DNA of 64,000 nucleotides, from assembly GCF_000009905.1 (NCBI RefSeq), contig NC_006177.1, positions 1,922,001-1,986,000 of the forward strand, given 5' to 3'. A model generated the notes under the pieces. That model was not told the DNA's origin, did no database searches, and saw nothing but the letters and a program-made list of their open reading frames with translations. Shown one piece after another: positions 13,771-20,580 of this stretch; position 1 is the first letter of the stretch; each line of letters begins with the position of its first letter. Made by a program: the position numbers and the translations under genes. The DNA is from Symbiobacterium thermophilum IAM 14863 (GTDB lineage: Bacteria > Bacillota > Sulfobacillia > Symbiobacteriales > Symbiobacteriaceae).

Positions 13771-13789
13771 TCCGTCAACCCCACAGGCG

Positions 13790-15669
13790 ATCGAGTAGGA
13801 GGGGGCGGCTAGCCCCCGTCCTCTCACACCACCGGACATGCGGGTCCGCATCCGGCGGTTCGCCAGGATTGACGAGTCGCTTCATAGCATTCGGTCAGGC
13901 TTATCAGCCCCTGGGCACGCCAGTAGGCGTCGCCCAGGGCGCTGTTTAGTGGGCCACCTGCCATCCGCCACGGGCCTTTGCGGCTGTTGGCGAGTTGGTA
14001 GACTGCCCATTCGGGCAAACCGAGGGCGCGTAACTCCCGAAAGCGCGTGCGTACACGCTTCCACTGCCTCCATACGCATGCTCGCAGCCGACGCTTCAGC
14101 CATCCTTCGAGTCTTTCAAAGGCTGACCTGGCATCGGAGAGCGCATAGTACCCAACCCAGCCCCGCAAGTAGGCATTCAGGCACCGGATTCGGTCCTCCA
14201 TGCTCTGGCTGCGGTTGCGGTCCGTCAGCGTGCGGAGCTTGTCCTTCACGCGCTTCAGGCTCTTCGGGGCCAGCCGGATGCGCACTCCCCGGTGCTTGTA
14301 GAAGCTAAACCCGAGGAACTGCCGCTTCCACGGCCGGTCCACTGCGCTCTTCTCCTCGTTGACCTTCAGCCGTAACCGCTCCTGCAGGAAGTGGCGCACG
14401 CTCCTGTAGACCCGTTCTCCCGCCCGCTTGCTGCGGACGTAGATGTTGCAGTCATCGGCGTACCGGACGAAGTGGTGCCCGCGGCGCTCCAACTCCTTGT
14501 CGAGGTCATCCAGCAGGATGTTCGCCAGCAGCGGGCTCAGCGGACCGCCCTGCGGCGTCCCTTCCTCCGTCGCCACGACTACCCCGTTCAGCATGACCCC
14601 GGCCTGTAAGTACCGCCGGATCAGCCGCAGCACACGCTTATCCGTTACCCGCCGCGCCACGCGGGCCATCAGCACGTCGTGGTTGACCCGGTCGAAGAAC
14701 TTCTCCAGGTCCATGTCCACGACCCAGTCGTACCCTTCCTCCACGTACTGACGTGCCTTCCTGACCGCATCATGACCCCGCCGCCCCGGCCGAAAGCCGT
14801 AGCTGGATTCGGAGAATGTCGGGTCAAAGATCGGCGTCAGTACTTGCAGGAGTGCCTGTTGGATCAGGCGGTCCATCACGGTGGGAATCCCCAGCATCCG
14901 CTTGCCGCCGCCCGGTTTCGGGATTTCGACCCGGCGGACTGGCTGCGGTCTGTAGGTCCCCTGGAGCAGTTCCTCACGGATGCGCTCCCACTCCGCGCGG
15001 ATCTGGTCCCGCAGCCGTTCGGTGGGGACACCGTCCACGCCGGGAGCGCCTCCGTTCCGCTCCACCCGTTTCAGGGCGGCCAGCATGTTCTCCCTGGCCA
15101 CCACCTGCTCCATCAGGTTGCTGTGCTCCCCGCGGGGTGACGTTCCGTCTTGTGCCGGCTGCCCACTCCGCCCTCTCGCCGTCCCTTGCGGCTTCACCGC
15201 TACCTCCGGCGAGCAGGTCCCGTTCGGGGTCTTCTGCGTTTGTCGCGGGCTGCTCGAACGCAACGGGTTCACCCCTTTCCTGACGTTCGGCCCTTCCCGG
15301 TTGGGGCGTCCCCCTGCCGGTACTATGGCCTTTGCTGACTTCTGCCGGTTCAGCTGCGTCTCCCGACGCAGGTTACCAGCGTTGCTGGCGTTCCCGGCAG
15401 ATCTCCCCGGGTAAGAACGCTGACCTTCACCCCGCACCCGCCCCATCTACCGCACCGCCCTTTGGCAGCTTCGGGTTTTGCTGTGTTCGGCCAGCTCACC
15501 CGAGCGGCACAGCCTCCTATGGGGTTCGTGTTCCTCGGGTCGTGGCTTTGCCTCCGGCTTCCTTCAGATTCCGCCTCACGACGGACACCCTTGCCTTTGG
15601 CTAACGGGCTGGTGCTGCCTCGCCCGTAGCGGACTTTCACCGCCAAGTCAGCGCCCATGCCGGGCACAC
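13790..15669 (-). mobile_element. Group IIC-type intron
   Basis: An 1880-nt intron on the minus strand. The 5' end is GTGTGCCCGG, matching the GTGYG consensus and followed by the conserved GGCGGTGAAAGTCCGC region. The 3' end has a recognisable domain V (about 13826-13861, CCGGATGCGG...CCGCATGTCCGG) and domain VI (about 13792-13822) with the typical TCCTACTCGAT ending at 13790. It encodes a maturase/reverse transcriptase. A terminator-like hairpin (15676-15699) lies six bases upstream of the insertion point, as expected for bacterial class C introns, which insert after intrinsic terminators. Ends are inferred from consensus and could be off by a base or two. Confidence 0.9.
13824..15197 (-). 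CDS. ltrA: Group II intron reverse transcriptase/maturase
   Basis: Intron-encoded protein that helps the intron splice and reverse-transcribes it during retrohoming. The 457-residue product has the RT motifs IPKPGGGKRMLGIP, SSYGFRPGR, DMDLEKFFDRVNHD and the catalytic FVRYADD (YADD at about 246-249), then the maturase X domain with LNAYLRGWVGYYALSDARSAFERL. No C-terminal endonuclease (HNH) domain is present, as usual for class C. The start is GTG at 15197, six bases after GGAGG; the upstream open frame is intron RNA. The stop overlaps domain V. Motifs are intact, so the intron may still be mobile. Confidence 0.95.
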   Translation of the reverse strand: MKPQGTARGRSGQPAQDGTSPRGEHSNLMEQVVARENMLAALKRVERNGGAPGVDGVPTERLRDQIRAEWERIREELLQGTYRPQPVRRVEIPKPGGGKRMLGIPTVMDRLIQQALLQVLTPIFDPTFSESSYGFRPGRRGHDAVRKARQYVEEGYDWVVDMDLEKFFDRVNHDVLMARVARRVTDKRVLRLIRRYLQAGVMLNGVVVATEEGTPQGGPLSPLLANILLDDLDKELERRGHHFVRYADDCNIYVRSKRAGERVYRSVRHFLQERLRLKVNEEKSAVDRPWKRQFLGFSFYKHRGVRIRLAPKSLKRVKDKLRTLTDRNRSQSMEDRIRCLNAYLRGWVGYYALSDARSAFERLEGWLKRRLRACVWRQWKRVRTRFRELRALGLPEWAVYQLANSRKGPWRMAGGPLNSALGDAYWRAQGLISLTECYEATRQSWRTAGCGPACPVV

Positions 15670-15675
15670 CGAAAT

Positions 15676-15738
15676 GAGCCGGTGCCGGCGCACCGGCTCC
15701 CACGGATGACCGGCCGCCTGCCACGGCGGCCGGTCATC
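15676..15738. terminator. Two tandem hairpins flanking the intron insertion site
   Basis: The first stem pairs 15676-15684 with 15691-15699 (6-base loop); the second pairs 15705-15718 with 15725-15738 (14 bp, 6-base loop) and is followed on the plus strand by GCTTTAAC. Before intron entry these probably formed the terminator of the CoxG-like gene. The first hairpin is the exon signal for the intron. Confidence 0.6.
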
Positions 15739-15788
15739 GCTTTAACACCGGAGCCCTGGTGCGCGACGTGGCCGTCTCGGGTGGCGGA

Positions 15789-16353
15789 CGCGCAGAACCT
15801 GCACTCACCAGTCGGTCCAGGGTGAACATTCTGCGCGCAACCTCTGCCGGGGCGATCGGTCAACGCGCAAAATCTGAACTCGCACGCTCCCCCCAAGTGC
15901 AGGTTCTGCGCGCGACGTGGTCATCTTGGGCGGCGCACGCGCAGAATCTGCACTCACCAGTCGGTCCAGGGTGAAGATTCTGCGCGCAACCTCTGCCGGG
16001 GCGATCGGTCAACGCGCAAAATCTGAACTCGCACGCTCCCCCTGAGTGCAGGTTCTGCGCGCAACGCAGCCGCCTTGGGTGGCCGACGCGCAGAATCTGC
16101 ACTCAGAGGCCAATCACGGGTGAAGGTTCTGCGCGTAACCTCCACCACTTTGGCCTGTCAACGCGCAGAATTTGAACTCACACGCTCCCCCCGAGTGCAG
16201 GTTCTGCGCGCAACGCAGCCGCCTCGGGTGGCCAACGCGCAGCACTCAGAAGCCGATCACGGCTGTAGGTTCTGCGCGGAACCTCCACCGCTGCAGCCTG
16301 TCAACGCGCAAGAACTGCATCCAACCGCTGACCCCGGATGCAGTTTCGGCGTG
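15789..16353. repeat. Array of eight 49-nt hairpin repeats, 75-bp period
   Basis: Eight copies of an interrupted inverted repeat (CGCGCAGAA-nTG-nACTC ... GnTTCTGCGCG) begin at 15789, 15864, 15938, 16013, 16087, 16162, 16236 and 16305. Each copy is 49 nt except the seventh (43 nt, an internal deletion); the eighth is diverged. Start-to-start spacing is 75, 74, 75, 74, 75, 74 and 69. Loops and spacers alternate between two types, so the true unit is a dimer of about 149 bp, best conserved in copies 1-4. The region carries long open frames on both strands only because the period is about 25 codons. From 16354 to 16516 I see nothing further. Confidence 0.85.
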
Positions 16354-16516
16354 CAAAGGTAGTTCCTGCGCGAGGGGAATGTACGGCGCCGCCCTTCCTC
16401 AGAACAGGTTGCCACCAGAGCGTTGTCTACCTCCACCCAGCCGGCACGACAGGGTGGCCGGGGCACTCCGGATGGGCCTAGCCGTTACCCTGCCGGAGGA
16501 TCGGAGTCCGGTGTGT

Positions 16517-17440
16517 TCACACACCTGTGAGATACCTCCTGAGCCGCTCCGTGGCCGCCTGCAGGTCCTGGGTGGCCTGCAGCATCGGCGCGAACAGGTC
16601 GCCCACCGCGGCCAGGCGCGCGGGCAGGGTGCGCATCGTGATCCGCGGCGGCTCGCCCTCCAGCTCCTCCCACGTGACCGGCGCGGACACCGGCGCCCCG
16701 GGCAGCGGCCGCAGTCCGTACACACTGGTGATCGTCTGCCCGCGCCGGTTCTGCAGGTAATCCACGTACACCTTCGGTCCGCGCCGTGCGACCGCGCGCT
16801 CGAGCGTCACCTTCTCCGGATACGCTCGCAGCAGGATCCGGCCCACCTGCTCGCAGAACGCGGCCGTCTCGGCGTAGGTCGTGCCCGGCGCCGCGGGACA
16901 GAAGATGTGGACGCCGGTGGCCCCCGACAGCTTGGGGAAACCCTGCACCTGCACCTCGCCCAGGATCTGCCGGACCAGCCGGGCGACGACCAGCACGTCT
17001 GCGAAGGTGGCGCCTTCCGCCGGGTCGAGGTCGATGACCGCCCAGTCCGGGTGGTCCGGCGAGTCGCAGGACGAGAGCCACGGGTGAAGTTCGATGGCTC
17101 CCAGATTGGCCACGTACGCCAGCGCCGCCGGCTCCTCGATGCGCAGGTAGCGGATGACGCGGCCGTCCTCCGCCCGGTCCGCCCAGGTCGGAATCCAGTC
17201 CGGGAGCCCCTGCGGGGCGTCCTTCTGGTAAAACCACTTGCCCCCGACTCCGTGGGGGTAACGGGTGAGCACCACCGGCCGCCCCCGCAGGTACGGCAGC
17301 AGGTAGGGAGCCACGGACACGTAGTGGGAGATCAGGTCCCCCTTGGTCAGCCCGTCGGCCGGCCACATGGGCTTCTCCAGGTTGGTCACCGCCAGCTCCC
17401 GCCCGCCGACCCGTACCCACCGCCTCTCGGTTCTGGCCAC
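16517..17440 (-). CDS. ligD: LigD-type polymerase/primase domain protein
   Basis: Stand-alone archaeo-eukaryotic primase-type polymerase that fills gaps during bacterial non-homologous end joining. The 307-residue product has YPHGVGGKWFYQKDAP, the catalytic DLDP (Asp137, Asp139), the FPKLSGATGVHIF strand and the third acidic residue in VYVDYLQN. The domain is normally fused to a ligase in LigD but is a separate gene here. The start is GTG at 17440, overlapping the stop of the preceding gene by one base, with GGAGGG 11 bases upstream. It is the last gene of the Ku operon. Confidence 0.92.
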   Translation of the reverse strand: MARTERRWVRVGGRELAVTNLEKPMWPADGLTKGDLISHYVSVAPYLLPYLRGRPVVLTRYPHGVGGKWFYQKDAPQGLPDWIPTWADRAEDGRVIRYLRIEEPAALAYVANLGAIELHPWLSSCDSPDHPDWAVIDLDPAEGATFADVLVVARLVRQILGEVQVQGFPKLSGATGVHIFCPAAPGTTYAETAAFCEQVGRILLRAYPEKVTLERAVARRGPKVYVDYLQNRRGQTITSVYGLRPLPGAPVSAPVTWEELEGEPPRITMRTLPARLAAVGDLFAPMLQATQDLQAATERLRRYLTGV

Positions 17441-18201
17441 TATGCCGGCCCGCCCTCCACGGGGATCCGACCGCCGTCCCCATCTCCCCGGCGCCCGGCC
17501 GGATACCCCCGCGCCTCCCCCGCGCCTGTGGGCAGCAGCCGCATCTCCTCCGGATCCCAAGCGGACACCAGCGCCATCACCTCGTCAACCTGGGTTGGGC
17601 GCGCGGAGACCTCCAGACGGAACCGCAGGGTCGCACTCTCCTGGGCCGCTGCGGCATCGCCTCCCTGGCCCGCCGGGTTCCCGCTGTCATCCCTGGCCTG
17701 GTCGGCCAGGTTGCCGAAGAAGCTGCCCAACCCGGCGCCGGCCAGTGTGGTCAGCATGGCGCCGGTGGCCGAGGCGGCGCCCAGCGGCGGCACCAGGTAG
17801 GTGGCAGCCAGGAACCCCGCCGTCGCGCCCACCGTGGCGCCGAGCACGGCCCCGCGCCCCATCCCCCGTTCGGTCATGACGGGGTCCTTCTCGCCGACCG
17901 AAGGACTGGCATGGATCGCCACAGGCCCCGTGTGCCCAGGCGGCGCCTCCTCCGCCAGCGTCACCCCCACGCCGCGCAGCTCCAGGGCGCGGAGACAGGC
18001 CCGGGCGCTGGACGCGTCGGCGAACCACGCCACAAGCACCGGAACGGAGTCCCCTGACGAGAGCGCCGCCTGCCCCTCCGACCGGCCCGGGTGGATCCCC
18101 TGCGGCCGCCCGCCGGGGTCGCCGCCCGGGAAGTGCGGTTCCTGCCCCGGAAGCGCCGGCACCTCGCGCTCCGGATGCTGCTGCCACTCCTGCTCCGTCA
18201 T
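17440..18201 (-). CDS. Hypothetical protein with glycine-zipper segment, inside the NHEJ operon
   Basis: A 253-residue protein I do not recognise as a named family. It has a Gly/Pro-rich N-terminus (1-48), a ferredoxin-like segment (PVLVAWFADASSARACLRALELRGVGVTL) resembling stress proteins of the YflT type, a central Gly/Ala-rich hydrophobic stretch (about 115-165, GAVLGATVGATAGFLAATYLVPPLG...) like a glycine-zipper membrane element, and a second ferredoxin-like strand pattern (ATLRFRLEVSARPTQVDEVMALV). It is positioned between the ligase (25 bp gap) and the polymerase (1-base overlap), so it is co-transcribed with the repair genes. Its role there is unknown. Confidence 0.65.
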   Translation of the reverse strand: MTEQEWQQHPEREVPALPGQEPHFPGGDPGGRPQGIHPGRSEGQAALSSGDSVPVLVAWFADASSARACLRALELRGVGVTLAEEAPPGHTGPVAIHASPSVGEKDPVMTERGMGRGAVLGATVGATAGFLAATYLVPPLGAASATGAMLTTLAGAGLGSFFGNLADQARDDSGNPAGQGGDAAAAQESATLRFRLEVSARPTQVDEVMALVSAWDPEEMRLLPTGAGEARGYPAGRRGDGDGGRIPVEGGPA

Positions 18202-18226
18202 CCGACTTTCCTCCTCGCTGCGTCTC

Positions 18227-19165
18227 TTACGGGATCACCGCCGCCTCCGGCGGCTCGGCCGAAAACCCGACCACCACCGGGTCCCGCAGCCGCCCCTCCT
18301 CGGTCCACTCGGTGAAGCTCACCCGCACCGTGAGGAGGGGCTCCACCCACACCACCGGTCCGGGGTCGCCGCCGAACCGCTCCCGGAGCCTCGGAATCTC
18401 CGCGAGGGGGCACGGGCCGGACGGCAGGTGGTGCCGGATCGCGGCCAGGTCCGCGCCGCTCAGCCCCGAGCCTACCCGGCCGATGTAGCGGAGCCGCCCG
18501 TCCCGGTAGGCGCCCAGCAGCAGCCCGCCCGGGCGGCCGGTCGGGTTGGTGTAGCCCACCACCACGGCCAGCATCTCCGACCGGCGCTTGACCTTCAGCC
18601 AGTCGCGGCTGCGCGCCCCCGGCACGTACCGGCTGGCACGCCGCTTGGCCACGACCCCCTCCAGCCCCCTGGCCACGGCGGCCGCGTAGAGCGCCGGCCC
18701 ATCGCTGCCCGGGAAGGACGAGACCACCTGCCACGCCTCGTCGGGCGGAACCACCGCCTCCAGCAGCGCCAGCCGCTCGGCCAGGGGCACGTCGTACAAC
18801 TCCCGGCCGTCCCACTCCAGCAGATCGAAGAGCATCAAGGTGGCCGGCCGCCTTCGGGCCGCCCCCGCCGTGCTGCCCGCCAGGTCCCGCTCCAGCACGG
18901 CCGAGAAGCTCGGCCGACCGTCCTGCAGCACGATGATCTCGCCATCCAGCACGGCCCGCCGCCCGGGGAGGGCCGCGGCCAGGCCGTCGAACTCGGGGAA
19001 CAGCGCCGTGCGCTCCCGCAGCCGACGGCTCCAGTGGCGCACCCGACCGCCCTCCACCAGCGTCAGGTTCCGCACGCCGTCCCACTTCACCTGATAGACC
19101 CAGTCGTCGTCCGCAAAGGGGGCCTCGGCGCGCTCCAGCAGCATGGGCGGGAAGGGCAGCCGCAC
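18227..19165 (-). CDS. ligD: ATP-dependent DNA ligase (LigD ligase domain)
   Basis: Seals double-strand breaks in the Ku pathway. The 312-residue product contains the nucleotidyltransferase motifs in order: I, KWDGVR (Lys27, adenylated); SRRLRE; DGEII; III, LMLFDLLEWDG; IV, GLEGVVAKR; V, DWLKVKR; then an OB-fold domain (VGYTNPTGRPGGLLLGAYRDGRLRYIGRVGSG). Length fits a stand-alone LigD ligase domain without polymerase or phosphoesterase domains. It starts two bases after the Ku stop. No 3'-phosphoesterase domain gene is present in the operon. Confidence 0.94.
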   Translation of the reverse strand: MRLPFPPMLLERAEAPFADDDWVYQVKWDGVRNLTLVEGGRVRHWSRRLRERTALFPEFDGLAAALPGRRAVLDGEIIVLQDGRPSFSAVLERDLAGSTAGAARRRPATLMLFDLLEWDGRELYDVPLAERLALLEAVVPPDEAWQVVSSFPGSDGPALYAAAVARGLEGVVAKRRASRYVPGARSRDWLKVKRRSEMLAVVVGYTNPTGRPGGLLLGAYRDGRLRYIGRVGSGLSGADLAAIRHHLPSGPCPLAEIPRLRERFGGDPGPVVWVEPLLTVRVSFTEWTEEGRLRDPVVVGFSAEPPEAAVIP

Positions 19166-19167
19166 GC

Positions 19168-20358
19168 CTACGGCCCTCCGGGCGCCGTCTCGTCCGGCCC
19201 GACCTCGGCCGCGCGGTCGCTCCCAGCGAACGGGCCGGGCGGGGCAGCCCCGTTGGGCGCGGTCTGCACGCCCGGCACGGACGTGGGCGACGTACCCGGG
19301 GCCGGCGCTGAGGGAACGCCCGGCGCCGTCGGCACGGGAGCCCCGGGCGTGCCGGGCACGGCCGTCGCGGGCACGCCCGGCACGGCCGCGGGCGGCGTAC
19401 CCGGGGTGGGCGCCCCGGTCACGCCCGGCGCACGCGGTACGGGAGCTGCGGGCACGCCGGGCACGGACGCCGCGGGGTCGCCAGGCAGTCCCGGGATCGC
19501 ACGCCGCGCGGGCGCCTCCGGTGACCTGGCCACTGGAGCTGGCGGGGTGCCGTCCGCGCCTGCGGCGCCGCCCGTCGCCCCGCCCGCGGCGCGCTGCGCC
19601 TCCGCCGCACGGATCGAGGCCCGCAAGGCCTCCATCAGGTCGACCACCCGACCCTGCTCCGGGGCCGGCCCGGGCTCGGCCGGAGGCGCCCCGGCGATCT
19701 TCGCCTGGATCAACTCCAGCAGCGCCTCTCGGTACGTGTTTTCAAACCGCTCAGGCGAGAACGGCATCGTCAGCGACTCGATCAGCCCGGTGGCCATCTC
19801 GATCTCCTGCGGGCGCAACTCCGGCTGGGCGATGCCGGTGAGGGCAGCCACCGGCCGGACCTCGTCGGGGAAGTGCATCGTCTCCATGGCGAGCACGCCC
19901 TCCCGGAAGACGCGCAGGGCTGCCAGCGACTCCTTTGCGCGCAGGACTACCCGCGCGATGGCCACGCGCCCGGTCACCTCCATCGCGTGGCGCAGCAGGC
20001 CGTAGGCCTTGGCGCCGCCCTCGCCGGGCTCGAGATAGTAGGTCTTGTCGAAGTAGATCGGGTCGATCTCCTCGAGGCGCACGAACGCCACGATCTCCAG
20101 CGTCCGCCGGGCCGCGAGCGGGATCGATTCGAAGTCCTCGTCCCGCAGCGTCACATAGCGTCCGCGGTCAAACTCGTATCCCTTGACGATCTCGCCGCTC
20201 TCGACCTCCCGCTCGCAGGTCGGGCAGTACTTCCGGTACTGCACAGGCGTCTGGCAGGGCTCGTGGAGCAGGTTGAAGCGCAGGTCCTTCGACTCCGTCG
20301 CGGCGTACAGCTTGACCGGGATCGTCACCAGCCCGAAGCTGATGGTCCCCTTCCACAT
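19168..20358 (-). CDS. ku: Ku DNA end-binding protein with long low-complexity tail
   Basis: Homodimeric Ku that encircles DNA ends and recruits the ligase. The core (about 1-260) starts WKGTISFGLVTIPVKLYAAT and has the zinc-like CPTCERE variant and the dimerisation region up to LLELIQAKIAG. The last 110-120 residues are a Pro/Gly/Ala/Thr/Val-rich tail with repeats such as PGTPGAPVP, not basic like most extended Ku tails. ATG at 20358 is used, but the family usually begins MRxxWKG; an in-frame CTG three codons earlier would give that start and is near GGGGGTGG, so the true start may be upstream. It is first in the NHEJ operon. Confidence 0.95.
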   Translation of the reverse strand: MWKGTISFGLVTIPVKLYAATESKDLRFNLLHEPCQTPVQYRKYCPTCEREVESGEIVKGYEFDRGRYVTLRDEDFESIPLAARRTLEIVAFVRLEEIDPIYFDKTYYLEPGEGGAKAYGLLRHAMEVTGRVAIARVVLRAKESLAALRVFREGVLAMETMHFPDEVRPVAALTGIAQPELRPQEIEMATGLIESLTMPFSPERFENTYREALLELIQAKIAGAPPAEPGPAPEQGRVVDLMEALRASIRAAEAQRAAGGATGGAAGADGTPPAPVARSPEAPARRAIPGLPGDPAASVPGVPAAPVPRAPGVTGAPTPGTPPAAVPGVPATAVPGTPGAPVPTAPGVPSAPAPGTSPTSVPGVQTAPNGAAPPGPFAGSDRAAEVGPDETAPGGP

Positions 20359-20429
20359 GGCACGCAGCGCGTCCACCCCCCGGTTCCTAGCGTAAGCCGC
20401 GGCAGTTCGGGCTATTCCGGGAGACCATA

Positions 20430-20459
20430 AGGAAAGGCCGGGCGTACCATCGCCCGGCC
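20430..20459 (-). terminator. Terminator upstream of ku
   Basis: A perfect 9-bp stem (20436-20444 with 20451-20459) with a 6-base loop, followed on the minus strand by TTTCCTT. It ends transcription coming from the gerW side and isolates the ku operon. Between it and 20580 there are short degenerate direct repeats around the word AGCACGTAAGG. Confidence 0.65.
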
Positions 20460-20580
20460 GGAAACCTCGGCATGAGGGCCACAGGGCAGCACGTAAGGCC
20501 GTAAGCCAGCACGTAAGGGCCATGGACCAGCAGCTACGGGCCGCAAGCCAGCCCGTGAGGGCCCAAGGCCAGTGATGAAT

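Follow-up and report, generated by a model that had tools for sequence, protein, structure and literature searches.

A tandem array of short interrupted palindromes beside the ligD gene of Symbiobacterium thermophilum IAM 14863 raises the question of what kind of element it is and how it came to lie there. The window, i.e., the whole 64,000-nucleotide stretch analyzed here, spans G000:C1:1922001-1986000 of this genome (referred to as G000), which is one contig of 3,566,135 bp. The array and its units are as follows:

15789 to 16353, unstranded: A-type array of eight units with a 75/74-bp beat, dyad CGCGCARAAYCTGAAC, 17 nt, mirror
15789 to 15837, unstranded: unit 1, 49 bp, loop type a
15864 to 15912, unstranded: unit 2, 49 bp, loop type b
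15938 to 15986, unstranded: unit 3, 49 bp, loop type a
16013 to 16061, unstranded: unit 4, 49 bp, loop type b
16087 to 16135, unstranded: unit 5, 49 bp, loop type a
16162 to 16210, unstranded: unit 6, 49 bp, loop type b
16236 to 16278, unstranded: unit 7, 43 bp, damaged, with 6 bp missing from the loop
16305 to 16353, unstranded: unit 8, 49 bp, with degenerate arms, starting 69 bp after the start of unit 7

All eight interrupted palindromes of the first-pass annotation were recovered, with unit starts at 15789, 15864, 15938, 16013, 16087, 16162, 16236, and 16305, as were its two alternating loop types, which produce a 149-bp dimer whose three copies are 100, 90, and 77% alike. The annotation had also given a spacing of 74-75 bp throughout; this holds for the first six of the successive intervals (75, 74, 75, 74, 75, 74, and 69 bp), while the last interval is shorter and the last two copies are damaged. 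The arms of units 1-6 read CGCGCARAA / TTCTGCGCG, and the array has a Tandem Repeats Finder score of 656.

The array is not confined to this locus, as it would be if it were the recent local duplication that the annotation had allowed for. A genome-wide count gave 167 occurrences of the arm CGCGCAGAA and 16 of the reversed control, which excludes chance, and about two dozen related arrays are present, with three dyad types, referred to as A, B (including a variant B'), and C. The A type comprises ten arrays, which were read unit by unit, nine having a beat of ~74.6 bp and one of 64 bp. The B type comprises about a dozen arrays found by tandem-repeat and palindrome scans, and its half-site GAGGCGRAATGTGCAC, like the B' half-site GGGGCAGAAWGTGCAC, aligns with that of A without gaps. 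The C type is represented by two arrays with the half-site TGCGACRGATTTTCACTT and a 48-bp dyad, probably related to the A and B dyads. Between 1.6 and 2.955 Mb of the genome, coverage came mainly from searches with models and patterns.

When half-sites were scored independently of spacing over 2.36 Mb and then paired at total lengths of 36 to 69 bp, 141 A and B dyads were found at 49 bp and at most two at any other length, each dyad consisting of two inverted half-sites of ~16 bp and a 17-bp centre. Between A arrays the loops are 36% identical (29% for random sequence) and the half-sites 82%; loops and spacers are alike within one array, and only the half-sites are alike between arrays. Loop length is kept and loop sequence is free, which points to selection on distance. 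Passive, satellite-like duplication, in which palindromes slip and amplify without a dedicated protein, would agree with this local homogeneity and with differences in copy number (e.g., 3 versus 4 units in an array with a 127-bp beat shared with a congener), but it leaves conserved arms around near-random loops, the invariant length, and the quantized beats and gene linkage described below without a cause, and we regard it as very improbable. The arrays do not resemble CRISPRs either, as the annotation had stated, because neither interval is unique within an array: both repeat, with a loop identity of 0.76. As for an origin from a MITE or IS, no common ends were found, and an all-against-all comparison of the 250-bp flanks returned an intron fragment only; neither inverted ends nor common flanks were found between arrays, and the flanking genes are mixed in function and orientation.

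The beats of the different arrays (64, 74.6, 85.3, 106.6, 116.2, 126.6, and 138 bp) lie close to n x 10.6 bp, with n = 6, 7, 8, 10, 11, 12, and 13, and no other period from 4 to 30 bp fits better than 10.6 bp. Taking each beat class as a single value, Monte Carlo simulation gave p = 5e-5 for phase zero and p = 1.5e-4 for free phase; the A arrays share ancestry, so that these per-class values are the fair figures. Arrays found later, in the unread parts of this genome and in the congener G002, have beats of 75, 74.6, 75, 85.25, 128, and 139 bp, and at the fixed period yielded p = 1.5e-4, or p = 0.0025 with one value per class. In arrays belonging to other dyad families (beats, 151-241 bp), quantization was not significant (p = 0.13). 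The earlier suggestion of about seven helical turns per beat, with all copies on the same face of the helix, is thus supported by whole-turn beats of 6-13 turns across many arrays. Such beats with free spacer sequence, together with the strong homogeneity within arrays, might also arise if arrays were amplified by way of DNA circles or loops, each the size of one unit, whose closure is efficient only at whole turns, the phasing then being a mark of growth rather than of protein stacking. We consider this improbable, since on its own it leaves the fixed 49-bp dyad and the link to a nuclease gene unexplained.

An array of hairpins may act as DNA or as RNA, and processed RNAs were among the options of the first-pass annotation. 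RNA folding of the window-array units gives -19.6 to -30.2 kcal/mol, which is good folding and would suit tandem hairpins that are processed, stabilize transcripts, or terminate transcription. Where the A and B types differ within the stem, both of its sides are changed, as is necessarily so in any dyad. Among 141 units, however, stem position 7 has 72 Watson-Crick pairs (69.7 expected) and 47 mismatches, an A.C mismatch occurring in 42 of the 141, and stem position 10 has 83 Watson-Crick pairs (76.8 expected) and 41 mismatches. These two positions vary independently and pair no better than chance, which argues for a site in DNA and against an RNA stem, and they fit a half-site that would be read twice by a protein better than a selected RNA stem. 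Besides, an RNA needs neither an exact loop length nor helical beats, and Rfam gave no match within the array, matching only the neighboring intron. An RNA function is therefore disfavored and hardly to be expected.

The surroundings of the array bear on how it arrived, and contain the following features:

15700 to 16515, unstranded: segment comprising the array and its flanks, present here and missing in the congener G002
15676 to 15699, unstranded: terminator-like hairpin GAGCCGGTGCCGGCGCACCGGCTC, retained at the empty site of G002
13788 to 15674, minus strand: group II intron with a reverse transcriptase/maturase ORF (13824-15446), on the other side of the hairpin and not part of the array
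16517 to 17560, minus strand: ligD primase-polymerase gene, adjoining the array

In G002, the end of ligD lies a few bp from the hairpin equivalent to 15676-15699; because the two nearly abut there, 15700-16515 is extra DNA in the present genome. The window array is inserted between ligD and its terminator, and it is missing from both congeners examined, in which ~50-80 bp separate the flanking genes at this site. The array is flanked by a non-homologous end-joining (NHEJ) cluster at 16517-20523, in which the ligD primase-polymerase was identified by Pfam and ORFs resembling ligase and Ku were recognized by eye. dnaE and addB/sbcC are likewise flanked by A arrays, and these adjacencies are possibly due to chance. 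Four of the ten A arrays (those of the window and of loci L040, L048, and L049) adjoin a group II intron, intact in two cases and truncated in two. At least eight closely related copies of this intron are present in the sequence scanned, those in the window and at L040 following a terminator hairpin, and a fragment of an IS3-like transposase (by eye) lies between the truncated intron and the A array at L048:6009-6160.

The family is restricted in its distribution. In 154 genomes of the class, the A/B' dyad pattern was found only in the present genome and in G002 (0 in the control), and the B model found G002, with no convincing match in the relatives G001, G003, and G004. One array, with a 127-bp beat, is common to both genomes at the same place (700.6 kb here, contig C99 of G002), with 3 and 4 units, respectively. 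In the congeners, other palindromic repeats occupy the dnaE and addB/sbcC sites, G002 having a single C dyad at dnaE. In G001, which is without A and B arrays, a different 151-bp palindromic tandem repeat occurs at the addB/sbcC and dnaE sites (L129:1991-2443 and L121 ~2190-2290). A wide scan of genome contigs with the B/B' dyad pattern returned, apart from G002, two contigs of rumen Clostridia, each with a single-copy, terminator-like hairpin that fits the B pattern exactly (L237:1877-1919 and L239:2712-2754); these have the same geometry without an array, and were judged a chance similarity of a strong terminator. Searches for phage, plasmid, or viral copies of the array or dyad found none, and no description of these arrays was found in the open literature, a search scope that did not include the original genome paper.

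Some of the dyad arrays immediately precede genes of one family, seven in this genome and 4 to 11 in each relative, which encode a winged-helix protein ending in an EDxHD/Vsr-like homing-type nuclease domain. Of 14 family genes examined across three Symbiobacterium-level genomes, 10 are preceded by a tandem array at a distance of no more than 1.2 kb, compared with the 2.8% of positions for which this is so (p ~2e-13), and in this genome alone the count is four of six (p = 8e-6). Most of these gene-upstream arrays have dyads of ~48-55 bp with differing sequences. The four of 14 genes without an array within 1.2 kb count against the linkage, although for one of them a C array lies at a distance of 1.25 kb, separated from the gene by a transposase-like ORF, and this may be taken as an eleventh case; so does the observation that most family genes in the more distant genera G003 and G004 are without an array.

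The type of dyad follows the type of protein. The A, B, and B' arrays go with one protein subfamily, whose members are 65-70% identical and whose dyads align gaplessly, and the C arrays go with the C83 and 3136-kb genes of the other, whose proteins are 73% identical. The C3 array of G002 and the A array at 2927.2 kb are upstream of the same gene, and a paralog adjoins the B array at 1206 kb. For the window array, the presumed partner gene is G000:C1:2928435-2929472, ~0.99 Mb away. A 59/117-bp tandem repeat of another sequence is present at G000:C1:3132842-3133344, ~1.2 kb from the C array and close to one of the nuclease genes of the family.

The N-terminal half of the protein has a winged-helix DNA-binding sequence, with one winged helix supported by Pfam and a second read from the sequence; the region resembles phage replication initiators, and its profile matches are regulatory proteins (MarR, GntR, and IclR, among others). 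In the C-terminal part, N212, P213, D222, E232, G235, H238, T242, and K261 are invariant over 19 members, and D222, E232, G235, Q237, H238, and D258 remain invariant when phage EDxHD enzymes are included, so that the signature D...E..G.QH...D..K is present together with a Vsr-like fold. This fold comes from a structure model built from an alignment with phage relatives of the nuclease domain; the prediction is confident for the nuclease domain only, and of low confidence for the N-terminal part. Foldseek ranked Vsr first, and the model aligned to the catalytic domain of I-Bth0305I with Z 10.1 and an rmsd of 2.8 over 92 residues (Vsr, Z 9.2). By modeled fold and signature, the C-terminus is an EDxHD homing-type nuclease with a predicted cleavage activity. 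Sequence searches found no plasmid or viral relatives of the full-length protein (phage relatives being found for the nuclease domain only), the PDB gave winged-helix regulators only, and Padloc gave weak winged-helix matches and no defense system.

In our view the array most probably (at a probability of about 0.6) consists of double-stranded DNA sites for this chromosomal family of winged-helix and EDxHD/Vsr-type nucleases, which would bind as dimers, stack at whole turns, and spread their sites by nuclease-provoked events. Each 49-bp unit would offer two inverted half-sites around a centre that is constant in length and free in sequence, and a protein dimer gripping both half-sites would hold its nuclease domains over the 17-bp centre, which would explain the dyad. 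Such a fixed centre is the geometry expected of a dimeric nuclease, and I-Bth0305I is reported to dimerize on a target site just under 60 bp long (PMC3943268). Whole-turn beats would set all dyads on one face of the helix, where neighboring complexes could touch, and would explain how many dimers assemble on one face; in iteron binding, cooperativity is lost at half-turn spacing (PMC4980987). Arrays might then spread and grow by repair copying provoked by the nuclease, as REPINs do with RAYT enzymes. Those linked to genes may also serve as autoregulatory operators, and the window array would be an "orphan" A-type copy with a distant partner gene. Binding, cleavage, nuclease-driven spread, and autoregulation are what we infer here.

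The linkage to genes and the dyad could equally reflect a self-regulating repressor, and the main rival explanation is that the dyads are operators of domesticated regulators, acting on their own gene, on distant loci, or on the nucleoid, with a nuclease that is inactive or incidental. Arrays located just upstream of gene starts, the profile matches to MarR, GntR, and IclR, and the three of ten A arrays that adjoin dnaE, addB/sbcC, and ligD would fit such operators. We nevertheless think it unlikely, because the signature residues of the nuclease are (near-)invariant over the 19 members, array sites are not kept between congeners, and the flanking genes vary in function and orientation. A bolder reading, namely a selfish homing-type nuclease that spreads phased arrays of its own targets through intergenic DNA, with a REPIN-like lifestyle that arose independently on a homing-endonuclease scaffold and with helical phase under selection, is put forward only tentatively, as a possibility that we would not bet on.

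Among known systems, REPINs are inverted doublets with a freer spacer, mostly intergenic and linked to RAYTs (PMC3116915, PMC3733652), and a REP is defined as a small palindrome tagged at its end by GTAG or CGTC (PMC3733652). The present dyads resemble REPIN and REP-BIME elements as inverted, likewise mostly intergenic doublets on a 16-bp scale with a freer spacer, which also occur in tandem arrays and whose types are each near a dedicated enzyme gene, and they share with REPIN/RAYT the combination of gene-linked arrays and dispersed orphans, with an unrelated enzyme. A REP-like system or a protein array, both proposed in the first-pass annotation, is plausible, but its proposed check for a RAYT was negative, Y1/RAYT (PF01797) being absent from G000-G004 with positive controls. 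Further, the half-sites CGCGCARAAYCTGAAC and GAGGCGRAATGTGCAC lack a GTAG or CGTC tag and are not hairpins. Unlike in REPIN/RAYT, the enzyme proposed here is an EDxHD nuclease with a winged helix, the dyad is fixed at 49 bp, and the beats are helically quantized.

I-Bth0305I and the phage EDxHD/Vsr enzymes share the fold and signature residues of the catalytic domain, whereas the present family has a winged-helix N-terminus, is chromosomal with several paralogs per genome, and has tandem arrays of candidate sites rather than one target in an allele. Iteron origins, in which helical phase matters for cooperativity (PMC4980987), also have an array directly upstream of the gene for a DNA-binding protein, with a Rep-like winged helix. 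Iterons, however, are direct repeats of ~20 bp, and the sites here are dyads in alternating orientation with many dispersed copies and a nuclease domain in the protein. The arrays would work like REPIN/RAYT or iteron/Rep systems, and are a member of neither. The F plasmid centromere sopC consists of tandem units, each containing an inverted repeat to which a dimeric protein binds. It resembles these arrays in its tandem inverted-repeat units and dimeric binder (predicted in our case), and differs in having one locus per plasmid and no nuclease.

If the preferred reading is true, the family would be a second enzyme class, unrelated to RAYT and known after it, that runs a dispersed family of bacterial palindromes, and its sites would provide an EDxHD enzyme with a clean set of substrates. 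The arrays would also be a natural DNA ruler, in which beats of 6-13 turns hold helical phase as spacer sequences vary freely, and the several dyad types and cognate paralogs in one genome make the co-divergence of protein and DNA directly testable.

Other repeats were noted in the same genome. At G000:C1:281100-281864, a 126-bp sequence with a strong hairpin, outside the dyad family, is repeated in six nearly identical copies, and two CRISPR-like arrays are present at G000:C1:355921-357483 and 721960-728878.
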